A stretch of 64,000 nt of DNA from Serinicoccus hydrothermalis. Lineage in GTDB: Bacteria > Actinomycetota > Actinomycetes > Actinomycetales > Dermatophilaceae. A program made the position numbers and the translations under genes. The notes under the pieces were generated by a model. That model was not told the origin of the DNA. It was given only the letters and a program-made list of their open reading frames with translations, and made no database searches. Location: assembly GCF_001685415.1 (NCBI RefSeq), contig NZ_CP014989.1, forward strand, positions 1 to 64,000, read 5' to 3'. Shown in pieces: positions 2,378 to 50,470 of the stretch (position 1 is its first letter; each line of letters begins with the position of its first letter).

Positions 2378-3916
2378 TCAGGCGTCGGCCGCCTCCTCCG
2401 CGGCCTCCTCGGCGGCCTCGGCGTCCTCGTCGACCCAGTCGAAGGTCTTCGTGACGGCCTTCTTCCACTGGCGGAAGAGCCGGTCACGCTCGGCGTCCTT
2501 CATCTGGGGGCTCCAGCGCTGGCCCTCCTCCCAGTTGTCGATGACGTCCTGCTCGCCGGAGAAGAAGCCGACCGCGATGCCGGCGGCATACGCCGCGCCC
2601 AGGGCCGTCGTCTCCGCCACCTTGGGACGCACGACGTCCACGCCGAGGATGTCGGCCTGGAACTGCATGAGCGTCTCGTTGGCGACCATGCCGCCGTCCA
2701 CGCGCAGCTCCGTGAGCTCCACGCCGGAGTCGGCGTTCATCGCGTCGGAGACCTCGCGCGTCTGGAAGGCGGTGGACTCCAGCGCCGCCCGGGCGATGTG
2801 GTTCTTGTTGACGTAGCGGGTCAGCCCCACGATCGCCCCGCGGGCGTCGTCCTTCCAGTAGGGCGCGAAGAGCCCGGAGAAGGCCGGCACGATGTAGCAC
2901 CCGCCGTTGTCGTCGACCTTGTTGGCGAGGGTCTCGATCTCCGGCGCGTCCGAGATGAGCCCGATGTTGTCCCGCAGCCACTGCACCAGCGAGCCGGTGA
3001 CCGCGATCGAGCCCTCGAGGGCATACACCGCGTCCTGGTCGCCGATCTTGTAGCAGACCGTGGTCAGCAGGCCGTTCTCACTGGGGACGATCTCGGTGCC
3101 GGTGTTGAGGAGCATGAAGTTGCCGGTGCCATAGGTGTTCTTGCTCATGCCCTTCTCGAAGCAGGCCTGCCCGAAGGTCGCGGCCTGCTGGTCGCCGAGG
3201 ATCCCGGCGATCGGCACGTGCAGCTTGGTGCTCTCGCCGTAGACCTCGGCCGAGGACTTGATCTCCGGCAGCATCGACAGGGGTATGCCCATGTCCGAGG
3301 CGACCTGCTCGGACCAGGACAGCGTCTTGAGGTCCATGAGCATCGTCCGCGAGGCGTTGGTCACGTCGGTGACGTGGACGCCGCCGTCGGTGCCGCCGGT
3401 GAGATTCCAGACCGTCCAGCTGTCCGTGTTGCCGAAGAGCAGGTCACCGGCCTCGGCCTTCTCCCGGGCGCCCTCGACGTTGTCGAGGATCCACTTGACC
3501 TTGGGGCCGGAGAAGTAGGTCGCCAGCGGCAGCCCGCAGACGTCCTTGTACTTGTCCGCGCCGTCGTCGCCACCGAGCTCGGCGACGATCTTGTCGGTCC
3601 GGGTGTCCTGCCAGACGATGGCGTTGTAGACGGCCTCACCGGTGTTCTTGTCCCACACCACCGCGGTCTCGCGCTGGTTGGTGATGCCGATCGCCGCGAG
3701 GTCGTCGTTGCCGAGGCCGCCCTTGCCGAGGGCGGTGCCGATGACCTCCTTCGTGTTCTCCCAGATCTCGGCGGGGTCGTGCTCGACCCAGCCGGCCTTG
3801 GGGAAGATCTGCTCGTGCTCCTTCTGACCGACGGAGTGGATCTCGCCGCTCTTGGTGAACACGATGGCTCGGGTGCTGGTCGTTCCCTGGTCGATGGCCA
3901 GGACGTAGTCAGCCAT
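2378..3916 (-). CDS. glpK: Glycerol kinase
   Basis: Phosphorylates glycerol to sn-glycerol 3-phosphate, trapping it after entry through GlpF; cytoplasmic FGGY-family kinase, 512 aa. The N-terminal ATPase motif DQGTTSTR sits at residues 9-16, followed by [23 protein letters not shown] and the C-terminal [18 protein letters not shown] are characteristic of GlpK. The protein ends in an Ala/Glu-rich tail longer than in most homologues. AAGGAG precedes the ATG at a good distance. It is the last gene of glpD-glpF-glpK, 48 bp after glpF. The MGIP near residue 211 is coded with the rare Ile codon ATA inside a GGTATGCC word. Confidence 0.97.
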
Positions 3917-3964
3917 GCACTTGCTCCTTCACGTCGTTGTGGATGGTGGGGGTCAGGTTGGTGG

Positions 3965-4699
3965 TCAGCCGTACAGCGCGGCGACGATGCCGGCGAGGAC
4001 ACCGCCGATGAGCGGGCCGGCGACCGGCACCCACGAGTAGCCCCAGTCGTTCGTGCCCTTCCCGGGGATGGGCAGGACGGCGTGCGCGATGCGCGGGCCG
4101 AGGTCGCGGGCCGGGTTGATGGCATACCCCGTGGGTCCACCCAGGCTGGCGCCGATGCCGACGACCAGCAGCGCGACGGCCAACGGGCCGAGCTGGTGCG
4201 GGGTGTTGCCGAAGAGGATGACGACGAAGACCAGGGCGAAGGTGCCGATGATCTCGGTCACGAGGTTCCACCCGTAGCTGCGGATCTCCGGCCCGGTCGA
4301 GAAGACACCCAGCTTGGCGGCGGGGTCGCCGTCGGCGTCGAAGTGCTGCTTGTAGGCGGCCCAGGCGAGCACGGCGCCGAGGAAGGCACCGAGCATCTGC
4401 GCGGCGAAGTAGATGAACATGTTGCCGACGTTGGCGGCCACACCGGGGGCGAACTCCTCCGCCCCGTTGGCCAGCAGGCCCACGGTGACCGCGGGGTTGA
4501 TGTGCGCGCCCGACTTGTAGGCCACGAAGACACCGGCGAAGACGCCGAGGCCCCAGCCCCAGTTGATGAGCAGCCAGGCGGCACTGGGACCGCCGCCGGT
4601 CCCCTTGGTCTGGGGCAGGATAGCGTTCGCGACCACGCCGCAGCCGAAGAGCAGCAGCATCATGGTGCCGAGCACCTCGGAGACGAAAACAGCTCCCAC
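3965..4699 (-). CDS. glpF: Glycerol uptake facilitator (aquaglyceroporin)
   Basis: Six-helix MIP-family channel of 244 aa that lets glycerol diffuse into the cell. Both pore half-helix motifs are present: HINPAVTVG in the first half and INPARDLGPR in the second. The Asp after NPAR is the signature of glycerol-conducting rather than water-only members. The start is GTG at 4699 preceded by AAGGAG at proper spacing. It lies between glpD (49 bp upstream) and glpK (48 bp downstream), so channel, kinase and dehydrogenase are transcribed together. Confidence 0.95.
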   Translation of the reverse strand: MGAVFVSEVLGTMMLLLFGCGVVANAILPQTKGTGGGPSAAWLLINWGWGLGVFAGVFVAYKSGAHINPAVTVGLLANGAEEFAPGVAANVGNMFIYFAAQMLGAFLGAVLAWAAYKQHFDADGDPAAKLGVFSTGPEIRSYGWNLVTEIIGTFALVFVVILFGNTPHQLGPLAVALLVVGIGASLGGPTGYAINPARDLGPRIAHAVLPIPGKGTNDWGYSWVPVAGPLIGGVLAGIVAALYG

Positions 4700-37605: not shown

Positions 37606-38538
37606 GTGCCGGTGCGAGACGAGCAGGACCTCGTCCTGGCGGTGGCCGTGGCACGGCGGCACTACGAGCAGAACCAGGCCAAGACGGAGATCGCCGAGGC
37701 GCTCGGGATCAGCCGGTTCAAGGTCGCCCGGCTGCTGGACCTGGCGCACGAGGCGGGGGTCGTGCGGATCGAGATCGTCGAGCCCGTCGCCGACGGGGGC
37801 CTGGCGCGCGACCTGGAGCAGGCCTTCGACCTGCGGTGCTGCAGCGTCGTCCCCATGCCCTCCTCCGCCCCCGAGGTTCGGTCCGAGGTGGGCCGGGCCG
37901 CCGCGCGGCTGCTCGGTCGGACGTTGCAGCCCGGTGACGTCCTCGGCCTGCCGTGGAGCCGGTCGGTCTACGACATGGTCGATGCGCTCGAGACGCTGCC
38001 GCAGGTGCCCATCGTGCAGCTCAGCGGCGCGCTGGCCGGCGTCCGGGAGGACTCCAGCGCCGTCGACCTGGTGCGTCGCGCGGGCCGGATCGCCGGAGGG
38101 GGTCGGCAGGTCTTCTTCGCGCCGCTCGTCATGCCGGACGCCGCGGCGGCGCAGGCGGTGCGGCGCGACCCCGCGGTGCGGGACACCCTCGCCGCGGCGG
38201 ACCAGGTGACGGTCGCGATGGTCGGCGTGGGTGCGTGGGAGGCCGGACAGTCGACGATCCACGACGCGGTCGACGCGGAGTGCCGGGAGCGGGTCCGCGA
38301 GGTCGGCGTCGTGGGCGAGTCGGTCGGGGCCTGCTTCGACGGCCGGGGCAGGTTGGTGAGCACCTGCCTGTCGGACCGGCTGATCGCGCTGTCGCCGGAC
38401 CAGCTGCGGGCCATCGACACGGTCATCGCCGTGTCCTACGGCCAGGGCAAGGTCGAGGCGCTGCGCGCCGCCATGACGGGCGACCTCGTCAACGGCCTCG
38501 TCACGACCCAGGACACGGCCCAGGCACTCCTGGCCTGA
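37606..38538 (+). CDS. SorC/DeoR-type sugar-responsive transcriptional regulator
   Basis: 310 aa. The N-terminal helix-turn-helix (about residues 15-55) has YEQNQAKTEIAEALGISRFKVARLL. The rest is the sugar-binding domain of the SorC family, with GDVLGLPWSRSVYDMV, QLSGALAG and the C-terminal VIAVSYGQGKVEALRAAM. The effector is probably a sugar phosphate or polyol product of the divergent operon. GGGAGG precedes the GTG start by five bases. It most likely controls the transporter/mtlD/xylB operon through the intergenic site. Confidence 0.92.
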   Translation: MPVRDEQDLVLAVAVARRHYEQNQAKTEIAEALGISRFKVARLLDLAHEAGVVRIEIVEPVADGGLARDLEQAFDLRCCSVVPMPSSAPEVRSEVGRAAARLLGRTLQPGDVLGLPWSRSVYDMVDALETLPQVPIVQLSGALAGVREDSSAVDLVRRAGRIAGGGRQVFFAPLVMPDAAAAQAVRRDPAVRDTLAAADQVTVAMVGVGAWEAGQSTIHDAVDAECRERVREVGVVGESVGACFDGRGRLVSTCLSDRLIALSPDQLRAIDTVIAVSYGQGKVEALRAAMTGDLVNGLVTTQDTAQALLA

Positions 38539-39256
38539 GGCCGACATCCGGCGCGACCTGCCTGCCCGATTTCGACCGTGCAGATGTTCGCCATGGCGAC
38601 GATTCCAGCGGGTCGACGGCGCGGGGCGAGGTCGGGTGCGGCTCCGCTCCCGGCGGGGTGGGTATGGCCCTGCGGGCCGGCGCCGGCAGCCGCAGGGTCA
38701 CGCCGACGTGGACCGCGGCGACCGCCAGGCTGACCCCGCCGACCAGGGCGTAGCCGCCCAGCCGGTGCAGCGGCGCGGCCGCCGCGATCGCGCCGGCCAT
38801 GACCACTAGGGCGACGCTCTCCGCGCGGGCCTTGACGAGGGCATACCGGGCGGCCTCACCCCGCGCCGACAGCTGCTCGAAGAGGTAGGCCTCCCAGGTG
38901 CCCGAGTGCATGGCGTCCGAGCAGGACCACAGGACGAAGCCGAGCAGGAAGCCCCAGAAGCTCGGCCACAGCATCCAGGTCGCGAAGGCGGCGACGTAGA
39001 CGAGGCCGGAGGCGACGAGCAGCCTCCGCCGGTCCAGGAGGTCGGCCCACGCGCCGGAGGGGATCTCCAGGACGAAGGCGCTCAGCGACCAGACGGCGAG
39101 CAGCACCGAGATCTGGGTGGTGCTCAGCCCCCGGTCGGCGAAGAGCAGCGCGTAGACGCCGAAGAGCGGGATCGCCTCGTGCGTGGCACGGTAGGCGATC
39201 GCCAGCCGGGTGAACGAGGCTCAACCCTCGCCGGTGGGGAAGGACGCTCGACTCAT
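38501..39256 (-). pseudogene. Broken MFS transporter gene
   Basis: The reading frame encodes an MFS N-terminal half: TRLAIAYRATHEAIPLFGVY as first helix, then FVLEIPSGAWADLLDRRRLL, the helix 2-3 loop, and about six helices in all. Both ends are damaged. An ATG at 39256 starts in frame but meets TGA after 11 codons (39221-39223), and no other start codon precedes the first helix. After helix 6 (near 38655) the sequence loses MFS character and the frame runs on until it overlaps the end of the SorC gene; the whole C-terminal half is missing. A sequencing error could explain the TGA but not the truncation. Confidence 0.8.
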
Positions 39257-39302
39257 GCGGACCAGCCTAGTCCCGTCCCGACCGAACGGGCCGGGGCAGC
39301 AC

Positions 39303-39444
39303 GGTGAGGATGGGTGCGGGTGCACCGATCCTCCCCGGGGTAGGGCGTTTCCGCGGCGGGTATGCCTGCGGCTGCACCGATCCTCCCCGGGGAAGGGGGG
39401 TCGCGCGGTGAGGATGGGTGCGGCTGCACCGATCCTCCCCGGGG
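39303..39444. repeat. Three tandem hairpin units, 52-bp period
   Basis: TGCACCGATCCTCCCCGGGG occurs at 39321-39340, 39373-39392 and 39425-39444, exactly 52 bp apart. In the outer two units it is preceded by GGTGAGGATGGGTGCGG (39303 and 39407); the middle unit has a diverged copy that carries GGTATGCC. Each intact unit folds: AGGATGGGTGC pairs with GCACCGATCCT with one mismatch over a 4-base loop, followed by the palindrome CCCCGGGG. The array lies 19 bp past the serA stop, so serC-serA transcripts would end in it. Confidence 0.9.
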
Positions 39445-39462
39445 AAGGGGAGGTGGGTCGCC

Positions 39463-40653
39463 TCAGCCGATCTTGCGCGCCCGGATGACACCGTCGATCG
39501 CGAGGATCGAGTCCTTGAGCTCGTCCTGCACCTCGCCCTCGACGTCGACGAGCGTGTAGGCGACCTCGCCCTTGGACTTGTTGGTGAACTCCGCGACGTT
39601 GAGCCCGGCCTCCGCGAGGGCGGCGGTGATCTGGCCGATCATGTTGGGCTTGTTCTCGTTGAAGATCCCCAGGCGCGTCGTGCCCGGCGTGCGGGCCATG
39701 ACGACCTCGGGGAAGTTGACCGAGTTGCGGATGTTGCCGTTGAGCAGGTAGTCCGAGAGCTGGTCGGCCGCCATGACCGCGCAATTGTCCTCGGCCTCGC
39801 CCGTGGACGCGCCGAGGTGCGGGAGGGCGATGACCTTCGGGTGCACCGAGCCGGCCTCGGAGGGGAAGTCGTTGACGTAGGCGTGCAGGTGCCCCGAGTC
39901 GAGCGCCTCGATGACCGCCTGCTCGTCCACGACGCCGCCACGGGCGAAGTTGAGCACGACCCCGCCGGGCGCCATCGAGGCGATCCGGTCGGCGTCCACG
40001 AGGCCCTTGGTCGCCTCGATGAGCGGCACGTGCAGCGTGATCATGTTGCTCCGGGCGAAGAGCTCCTCGACGCTGGTCACCTGCTCCACGTTGGGGGAGA
40101 GCTGCCAGGCGCGCTCGACCGTGATGGCCGGGTCGTAGCCGAGGACCTTGAGCCCGAGGGACTGCGCCGCGTTGGCGACGAGCACGCCGATCGCTCCGAG
40201 CCCGATGACCCCGAGGGTCTTGCCGGGGAGCTCGTAGCCCGCGAACTGCTTCTTGCCCGCCTCGACCTGCTTGTCCAGGTCGCCGCCGGAGAGCGCCTGG
40301 TCGGCGACGAGCCCGCGGGTGTAGTCAGCCGCGTGGTAGAGGTTGCGGGCCGCCAGCAGCATGCCGGCGATGACCAGCTCCTTGACCGCGTTGGCGTTGG
40401 CGCCCGGCGTGTTGAAGACCGGTATGCCGCGCGCCCCCAGGTCGTCCACCGGGATGTTGTTGGTGCCCGCCCCGGCGCGGGCGACGGCATACAGCGAGTC
40501 GGGGATCGGGGCCGAGTGCAGGTCCGCAGAGCGCAGCAGGATGCCCCGCGGCTCGGCGATGTCGGTGCCGAGGTCGAAGACGTCCCGGTCGAGCCGCTGC
40601 AGGCCGACGGGGGAGATCGCGTTGAGGGTCTGGATCGGGTAGGTCTGCGTCAT
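39463..40653 (-). CDS. serA: D-3-phosphoglycerate dehydrogenase
   Basis: First step of serine synthesis, oxidising 3-phosphoglycerate with NAD. 396 aa, the shorter form. Catalytic domains contain ARAGAGTNNIPVDDL, the Rossmann motif GVIGLGAIGVLVANAA, NFARGGVVDEQAV (catalytic Arg) and ALPHLGASTGEAEDNCA (catalytic His with Glu upstream). The last 75 residues are an ACT domain (RLGIFNENKPNMIGQITAAL) for serine feedback. It follows serC by 13 bp in the same operon and is followed by the three-hairpin array. Confidence 0.96.
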   Translation of the reverse strand: MTQTYPIQTLNAISPVGLQRLDRDVFDLGTDIAEPRGILLRSADLHSAPIPDSLYAVARAGAGTNNIPVDDLGARGIPVFNTPGANANAVKELVIAGMLLAARNLYHAADYTRGLVADQALSGGDLDKQVEAGKKQFAGYELPGKTLGVIGLGAIGVLVANAAQSLGLKVLGYDPAITVERAWQLSPNVEQVTSVEELFARSNMITLHVPLIEATKGLVDADRIASMAPGGVVLNFARGGVVDEQAVIEALDSGHLHAYVNDFPSEAGSVHPKVIALPHLGASTGEAEDNCAVMAADQLSDYLLNGNIRNSVNFPEVVMARTPGTTRLGIFNENKPNMIGQITAALAEAGLNVAEFTNKSKGEVAYTLVDVEGEVQDELKDSILAIDGVIRARKIG

Positions 40654-49186: not shown

Positions 49187-50470
49187 ATGAGCGTCACCAT
49201 CGCCCCCGACGTCACCGAGCAGGTCGCCGAGGTCGCGCGCGCCGCGCGCGTCGCCGCCCGCGAGCTGGCGCTGCTCACCCGCGCGGAGAAGGACGCCGCG
49301 CTGCTCACCCTTGCCGACGCCCTCGACGCGGGCGCGCAGCAGGTCGTCTCCGCCAACGAGGAGGACCTGCAGCGGGGCCAGGACCAGGGCCTGCCCGGCA
49401 ACCTGCTGGACCGGCTCGCCCTCGACGAGGACCGGGTGCGCGCGGTCGCCGACGCCCTGCGCCAGGTGGCGGGCCTGCCCGACCCCGTCGGGGAGGTGGT
49501 GCGCGGCTCCACCCTGGCCAACGGCCTGCAGATCCGCCAGGTGCGGGTGCCGATGGGCGTGGTCGGCATGATCTACGAGGCGCGGCCCAACGTGACCGTC
49601 GACGCCGCCGGGCTGGGGCTCAAGAGCGGCAACGCCGTCATCCTGCGCGGTGGCTCCGCCGCCGCCTCCACCAACGCGGCGCTCGTCTCGGTCCTGCGCG
49701 ACGCCCTCGAGGAGCGGGGGATCAACCCGGACGCGATCAACCTGCTCGCCGAGGGCGGTCGCGACGCGGCCCGCGCCCTCATGACCGCCCGCGGCCTCGT
49801 CGACCTCGTCATCCCGCGCGGCGGCGCGAGCCTCATCCAGACCGTGGTGACCGAGTCCACGGTGCCGGTCATCGAGACCGGCGTCGGCAACTGCCACGTC
49901 TACGTCGACGCGAGCGCGGGCACCGAGATGGCGACGGCGATCGTCACCAACTCCAAGACGCACCGGACCTCGGTCTGCAACGCCGCGGAGTCGCTGCTCG
50001 TGCACCGGGAGGCGGCGCAGCGGGTGCTGCCCCCGATCATGCGCGAGCTCGCGGCGGCGGGCGTGACCGTGCACGGCGACGAGCAGATGCAGCGGTATGC
50101 CGAGGCGGCCGGCGCGGCATACCAGCCGGTGACGGACGAGGACGACGACACCGAGTTCCTCTCCCTGGACATCTCCGCCCGGGTCGTCGACGACCTCGAC
50201 GCGGCGCTCGCGCACATCCAGGAGCACAGCAGCGGGCACACCGAGGCGATCGTCACCGACGACCGCGCCGCCGCCCGCAGGTTCACCACCGAGATCGACG
50301 CCGCAGCGGTGCTCGTCAACGCCTCCACGCGGTTCACCGACGGCGGCGAGTTCGGCTTCGGGGCCGAGATCGGGATCTCGACCCAGAAGCTGCACGCCCG
50401 CGGACCGATGGCGCTGCCCGAGCTCACGACCACCAAGTGGGTCGTCGAGGGCGACGGCCAGGTGCGCTGA
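49187..50470 (+). CDS. proA: Glutamate-5-semialdehyde dehydrogenase
   Basis: Second step of proline synthesis; reduces glutamyl 5-phosphate with NADPH. 427 aa. [27 protein letters not shown] is the cofactor region, and the nucleophilic cysteine lies in [17 protein letters not shown]. The C-terminus has [26 protein letters not shown] precedes the ATG at 49187, 31 bp after proB. Confidence 0.97.

Follow-up and report, generated by a model that had tools for sequence, protein, structure and literature searches.

The array behind serA

The window, by which we mean the whole stretch of 64,000 nucleotides that was analysed, belongs to the genome of Serinicoccus hydrothermalis (3,597,394 bp, 3.6 Mb), and every count referred to below as "own" concerns that genome. 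In this window serA lies on the minus strand (39463-40653), its stop codon being 22 bp from the nearest of three repeat units, while the next gene in the direction of serA is a truncated MFS gene (38501-39256, minus strand), with a leader ATG at 39254-39256 and an in-frame TGA at 39221-39223. A repeat search of 39293-39449 gave one repeat family with n=3 copies and start-to-start distances of 52 and 52, and the 20-mer TGCACCGATCCTCCCCGGGG was invariant in all three units (39321-39340, 39373-39392 and 39425-39444), confirming the first-pass annotation, which had described three units at exact 52-bp spacing with a conserved 20-base right arm. Unit 1 (39303-39336, plus strand), defined by repeat search and folding, is a 34-bp asymmetric palindrome of the form GGTGAGGATGGGTGCG-GG-TGCACCGATCCTCCCC, and unit 3 (39407-39440, plus strand) is of the same type. 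In unit 2 (39355-39388, plus strand) the right arm is exact, the left arm is degenerate and the hairpin is lost; within this altered left arm lies the octamer GGTATGCC (39359-39366, plus strand). The core arm, TGCACCGATCCTCCCC, occupies 39321-39336, 39373-39388 and 39425-39440 on the plus strand, its conservation having been assessed by genome pattern counts and between-locus identity. The two spacers (39337-39354 and 39389-39406, unstranded) are 18 bp each, fixed in length and with letters little or not at all common to other loci.

When each unit was folded alone, the outer ones reached, on the serA strand, -23.2 kcal/mol (z -4.0) and -22.9 kcal/mol (z -3.7). The middle one reached -12.6 kcal/mol (z +1.2), which amounts to no fold, owing to the sequence GGCGGGTATGCCTGCG in its left arm; the earlier observation that pairing is kept in the outer units and altered in the middle one was therefore borne out. 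The array region as a whole also folds better than its shuffles (z -3.2). The stems of the outer units are themselves imperfect, with mismatches at pairs 3:32 and 10:25, and a search of 38800-39800 gave 0 terminator-like sites, defined as a G+C-rich stem followed by a T-run, and no T-tract.

A dispersed family between genes

Within the window alone, TGCACCGATCCTCCCC with 3 mismatches gives five matches, a number which 4 of 100 shuffles also reach, and the weight of the array beyond chance comes instead from the whole genome. There, the core arm with at most 2 mismatches was found 51 times, against once for the reversed pattern (54 against a control of 5 in the count across the genus). By DNA search the copies group into 17 loci with about 40 units, which rules out the case, considered in the first-pass annotation, that no other copies exist. 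Fifteen stretches were fetched, covering the 16 loci other than serA, and all 17 loci are intergenic in a genome whose coding share is 90.7% of the sequence, as called by a small, unvalidated codon-usage script which in its first run missed a short gene at locus L033. Six of the loci sit between convergent, nine between tandem and two between divergent gene pairs. One unit is present at two loci, two at nine, three at four and four at two. From 41 unit candidates, one of which (2427989) was doubtful and was left out, 23 distances between neighbours were obtained, and 18 of these are exactly 52 bp; three are 53 bp, one is 61 and one is 88.

Regarding the genes that flank the own loci, 28 of 32 proteins gave ordinary Pfam matches and four gave none, and no transposase was found among the 32 scanned. 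A regulon reading was dropped, as the flanks (a LigD-type primase, spoU, pheS, hisS, tsf-pyrH, citrate synthase and a two-component pair, among others) share nothing obvious. Two further observations were made next to the arrays. A gene that is flanked by two arrays and situated between spoU and pheS (L032, 3950-5180; genome 171049-172282), an arrangement also present in the congener here called G135 (L112), matches the MTES_1575 nuclease family weakly, at 24.6 bits and below the cut-off of 38.2. In addition, a second dispersed palindrome, GGTGTTCCTCTGCGG..GATGCATCACCGCAGAGGAACACC, lies in full or partial form beside two arrays (L036, about 4090-4140, and L045, about 3900-3950).

Congeners and the two registers

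Arm matches with at most 2 mismatches were in excess in three other genomes of the genus, namely G135 with 77 (control 2), G120 with 28 (control 5) and G132 with 21 (control 2), and the other 27 of the 31 genus genomes held 2 to 12 matches (controls 0 to 9). As an exact 13-mer, ACCGATCCTCCCC occurs 33 times in the own genome, 24 times in G135 and 0-3 times in every other one of 186 family genomes, being present at all in 24 of the 186. The same palindrome family, in the 52-bp register, exists in G135, and in the own genome and G135 together neighbours are exactly 52 bp apart in 40 of 48 cases. The G135 copies were taken from exact CCGATCCTCCCC matches only, so the list of its loci may be incomplete, and three of its stretches with a single in-gene match each (L107, L110 and L115) were dropped.

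In the sister species G120, G132 and G123 the arm reads GGTCCGATCCTCCCCAA (with GTACC in G123) and returns every 32 bp, an inverted partner being absent in most cases. In the nine fetched stretches of these genomes, to which the sister-species figures refer and which contain some of the copies, same-strand neighbours within 2 mismatches are 32 bp apart in 20 of 20 cases. A single orientation is seen in five of the nine and both orientations in L117, L120, L121 and L123, and in four (L117, L119, L120 and L122) the closest copy is 4-9 bp from a called stop codon, the orientation relative to the neighbouring gene not being strict. Several flanks of the sister genomes were mis-called by the gene caller, which labelled 11 matches as in-gene, including the real-looking arrays L111, L123 and L124. 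Since these three genomes carry the arm mostly unpaired, it is the arm, and not the hairpin, that the species share. As a separate observation, L117 (G120:C3:60094-60333) consists of eight 32-bp single-arm units that follow a stop codon; its seven spacers are all identical, and this eight-copy array is likely a variable-number repeat.

A scan of the whole collection with a perfect-hairpin pattern, possibly run without the own genome, returned one record, from Serinicoccus kebangsaanensis, with a single unit which, as read by eye, is behind a stop codon. Moreover, the flanking genes match those of a fetched G135 array stretch at three of the 17 own loci, where whole-region identities, given with their shuffled values, are 0.69/0.66, 0.68/0.65 and 0.80/0.77 and the core arms are still recognisable by eye.

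The serA locus across the genus

Within 400 nt after the serA stop codon the array is absent from all 29 other loci of the genus, and the core arm with at most 2 mismatches appears in that interval in L155 only, as one two-mismatch match. G135 carries the family elsewhere in its genome, yet has no array behind serA. The serA array is a gain of the own lineage or a loss in all the others. The serA-MFS order is kept in 11 of the 29 congener loci, where 33-90 nt separate the serA stop from the MFS leader ATG, against 206 nt in the own genome. The similarity of the own MFS gene ends near residue 216, compared with 420-445 residues in six congeners, and because this adjoining gene is truncated, the description of the place as a site of gene decay was right for the serA locus. 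Regarding the accompanying proposal of a mobile palindromic repeat that expanded there, dispersal (17 loci) and a gain at the serA site (0 of 29 congener loci) are the parts that found support from sequence comparison, mobility of the units being a candidate reading.

The MFS gene deserves some remarks of its own. It starts with ATG-M..FPxGEG, followed by an in-frame TGA at codon 12 (39221-39256, minus strand), and the frame continues past the TGA without a usual start codon nearby; this truncated frame (38501-39220, minus strand) faces a convergent open frame at 37606-38538. A TGA after FP(S/A/T)GE(G/S/A)-like letters is present in all 15 MFS homologues of 30 serA loci (the own and 14 congeners), and the linkers vary in length yet stay in frame. 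A tRNA-Sec gene with a tca anticodon was found in the own genome (64 bits), and such genes above 60 bits occur in 14 of the 15 genomes with the TGA-MFS gene, but also in 25 of the 31 genus genomes. The exception is G138 (93% complete, 570 contigs; L147), whose TGA without tRNA-Sec either argues against selenocysteine or points to a missing contig. A stable hairpin (z -3.5) lies 3' of the TGA. Candidate explanations for this codon are a selenoprotein, readthrough or a leader peptide.

Conserved arm and drifting spacers

The comparison of distances and spacers was based on 39 own and 35 G135 units, including one doubtful unit in L113, which gives the sole distance of 51; its scan did not extend to the fourth unit of L034. 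Arm identities were computed on 73 units. Between different loci the identity of the right arm is 0.91-0.93 and that of the left arm 0.71-0.73; the 18 flanking bases on each side reach 0.36-0.38, where composition alone would give 0.32. Right arms of the own genome and of G135 are as alike (0.92) as own right arms are among themselves. Spacers are 0.75 identical within one array (37 pairs), compared with 0.41 between arrays (866 pairs) and 0.32 for shuffled spacers, the slight likeness over chance between arrays being partly due to GGTATGC, which 16 of the 48 spacers carry, the full octamer being found in eight of the 48. Thus, the length of the spacer is held and its letters are not. Neighbours at 51-53 bp have the same orientation in 36 cases and the opposite one in six, some of the latter being near-symmetric units. 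From these alignments, the conserved object is read as one DNA arm of about 13-16 bp, (T/A)CCGATCCTCCCC.

The spacers also bear on two further readings. A CRISPR-like arrangement (34-bp repeat, 18-bp spacer) was considered and dropped, since the spacers of one array nearly duplicate one another (0.75). The same likeness would be expected of a neutral local duplication without meaning; nevertheless, 17 loci keep one 52-bp register with near-unrelated spacers, and the register is repeated in a second species (G135), which makes such an explanation hardly credible. Local tandem duplication does explain, as a contributing process, the alike spacers within arrays and the seven identical spacers of L117.

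Pairing and the RNA question

Whether the palindrome is preserved as a structure was judged on 69 distinct units. Paired cells make up 79.2%, with a shuffle mean of 79.2%. Double changes affect 3 pairs, compared with 4.2 pairs in shuffled sets, and 130 of 500 shuffles attain the observed covariation score. Of the 69 units, 48 lack pair 3:32 and 47 lack pair 10:25. The register in which the arms pair is real, since slid alignments of the arms pair only 37-52%. Hence there is a palindrome, but compensatory changes do not maintain it.

An RNA element, that is, a group of terminators or of structures stabilising 3' ends, serving serA and other upstream genes, would agree with the good folding of the outer units and of the whole array, and with the placement of the loci, at least one gene 3' end adjoining 15 of the 17 and six lying between convergent genes. 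It is opposed by the lack of a T-tract or any terminator-like site at the serA array, by the recurrent unpaired positions (3:32 and 10:25) without compensation, by the middle unit that does not fold and by the sister-species arm arrays that have no inverted partner. Rfam, in addition, gave a single match (E 0.94), far under the gathering score and taken as chance. We consider this explanation improbable, and the earlier suggestion of a multiple terminator or mRNA stabiliser was not upheld as a conserved function, given that no terminator-like site was found, that pairing equals that of shuffles and that the sister arms are mostly unpaired. Arm identity, the lack of compensation and the absence of the array from the serA site of congeners indicate that a DNA sequence in helical register, and not an RNA hairpin, is the conserved thing; most likely it is either a site recognised by a protein or a repeat of the REP kind.

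Relation to known repeats

The family resembles REP/BIME elements, which are imperfect palindromes of 20-40 bp (34 here), in being dispersed, intergenic (17 of 17) and arranged in dimers or clusters, with species-specific numbers. A REP-like selfish repeat, spread by a transposase that is not a RAYT or has since been lost, and multiplied locally by tandem duplication, would account for these traits, for a copy number restricted by species, for the array gained at serA and for the fact that only three of the 17 own loci have flanks matching a fetched G135 array stretch. Furthermore, PMC3733652 records REP dimers whose spacers are similar in length but differ in sequence, and according to it CGTC-type REPs likewise have no dedicated transposase.

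Several features set the family apart. The RAYT, the Y1 transposase of GTAG-type REPs, is absent from the own genome, where PF01797 gave 0 matches (five of 14 control genomes do give matches), so RAYT-driven mobility was rejected. The terminal GTAG or CGTC tag is not consistent, since of 74 units only 10 have CGTC within 8 bp, five have GACG, and one each has GTAG and CTAC. In REP families the prevailing order is head-to-head or tail-to-tail (PMC3733652), whereas the present units are mostly head-to-tail in a fixed 52-bp register, the 36 same-orientation neighbours exceeding the six opposite ones. The number of about 40 units is below the abundance usual for REPs, which PMC2817692 puts at more than 100 copies per genome, but copy number is a weak criterion because PMC3733652 allows families of 20-100 units or fewer. 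One arm is conserved and the other is not, and the sister species use the arm without a partner. Finally, since spacers are near random between loci and the right arm is more than 90% alike, the family is explained neither by the copying of whole arrays nor by copies that decay evenly. A selfish repeat of this kind is possible, though we would wager against it, and it stands close behind the recognition-site reading set out below.

The second comparison, drawn from general knowledge, is with iteron-type or phased protein-binding arrays, in which a site is directly repeated at near-integral helical turns and the spacers are unconserved. The likeness covers all three traits. The difference is that the own family extends over 17 loci across the chromosome, between genes, and that its binding protein is putative.

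A genome-wide octamer

The octamer in the left arm of unit 2 is a lead outside the array itself. GGTATGCC has 2,180 copies in the own genome (1065 + 1115 by strand) against 11 for the reversed-word control (4 + 7), and 42 in the window, where 0.62 are expected, for instance at 39359-39366 and 40421-40428. A count over 186 kb gave 152 exact copies and at most 25 of any one-letter variant, with little flank preference. Its density is 2.14 per kb outside genes and 0.68 inside, a threefold difference, and in genes it has a codon cost, holding 22 of 35 ATA and 44 of 111 TAT codons. In serA, GGCATACC is found at one spot in four of 30 loci and GGCATCCC in most others where the stretch was found. Counts across 119 family genomes range from 6 to 2,228 and differ within genera.

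The octamer resembles, in its sequence statistics, a DNA uptake sequence or HIP1. With the uptake sequences of Neisseriaceae and Pasteurellaceae, as presented in PMC1939737, it shares a frequency of about one per 1.65 kb, strand balance, greater density outside genes and tolerance inside them; the differences are that its host is an Actinobacterium, that an 8-mer core with little flank preference is concerned and that it is known here from sequence counts. HIP1 (GCGATCGC), which PMC4390886 describes as a palindromic, high-frequency genome octamer of cyanobacteria, is similar in frequency, but GGTATGCC is not palindromic. The presence of competence genes failed as a discriminator, since ComEC, found in 115 of 119 family genomes, the own included, is nearly universal; it cannot split high- from low-copy genomes and so says little on the octamer.

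Two local arrangements were also observed. In the window at 50094-50123, GGTATGCC..GGCATACC form an inverted pair with 14 bases between them, which could form a hairpin and which is the only case of inverted octamer neighbours within 40 bp in 186 kb. Three octamer copies lie in a 27-bp tandem repeat adjoining the array at L038 (3783-3844; genome 1547882-1547943).

A putative phased recognition site

Tentatively, and with somewhat less than even confidence, we favour the explanation that the array is one locus of a lineage-specific, dispersed, intergenic repeat family whose arm is a putative phased protein recognition site. Its starting points are the observed dispersal, intergenic placement and register, the arm conserved against near-random spacers, the lack of compensatory pairing and the absence of the array from the serA site of congeners. 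Distances of 52 and 32 bp correspond to about five and three turns of B-DNA, and conserved sites with drifting spacers at nearly integral turns fit protein binding.

According to this recognition-site explanation, the arm would be bound by a putative sequence-specific DNA-binding protein, which might occupy several sites on one helix face at gene ends. In the own genome and G135 a second, degenerate copy of the arm is usually inverted 2 bp away, giving the 34-bp palindrome, and these units are set mostly head to tail every five helical turns, the arms of the sister species every three; the hairpin would then be a by-product of two inverted sites. Given its position between genes, for the most part at their ends, a bound array could act as a boundary or transcription roadblock. 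Phasing is not essential everywhere, since 11 of the 17 loci have one or two units. The likeness of spacers within arrays, the copies in both orientations in four of the nine sister stretches and the lax orientation towards neighbouring genes also weigh against this explanation. Moreover, a family confined to few congeneric species is more readily understood as a selfish repeat than as a core function, and the likeness of the arms may also stem from recent spread, which would count against a binding site. A more specific version, in which the arrays are binding platforms of a putative undescribed actinobacterial protein marking gene ends, in genomes likewise saturated with GGTATGCC, and in which this possibly uptake-like word overwrote the middle left arm, seems to us rather unlikely.

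Neither the palindrome family nor the GGTATGCC octamer was found described in the titles and abstracts searched, a coverage in which subscription journals are mostly not included. Were the octamer an uptake sequence, it would be a case in Actinobacteria, the literature, in the parts available, speaking of Neisseriaceae and Pasteurellaceae. As for the family, it would represent dispersed intergenic palindromes in which one DNA arm at fixed helical spacing, and not the hairpin, is conserved. The fact that sister species differ, with 32-bp arm arrays in some and 52-bp palindrome arrays in others, makes a direct test between a selfish repeat and a protein site possible.
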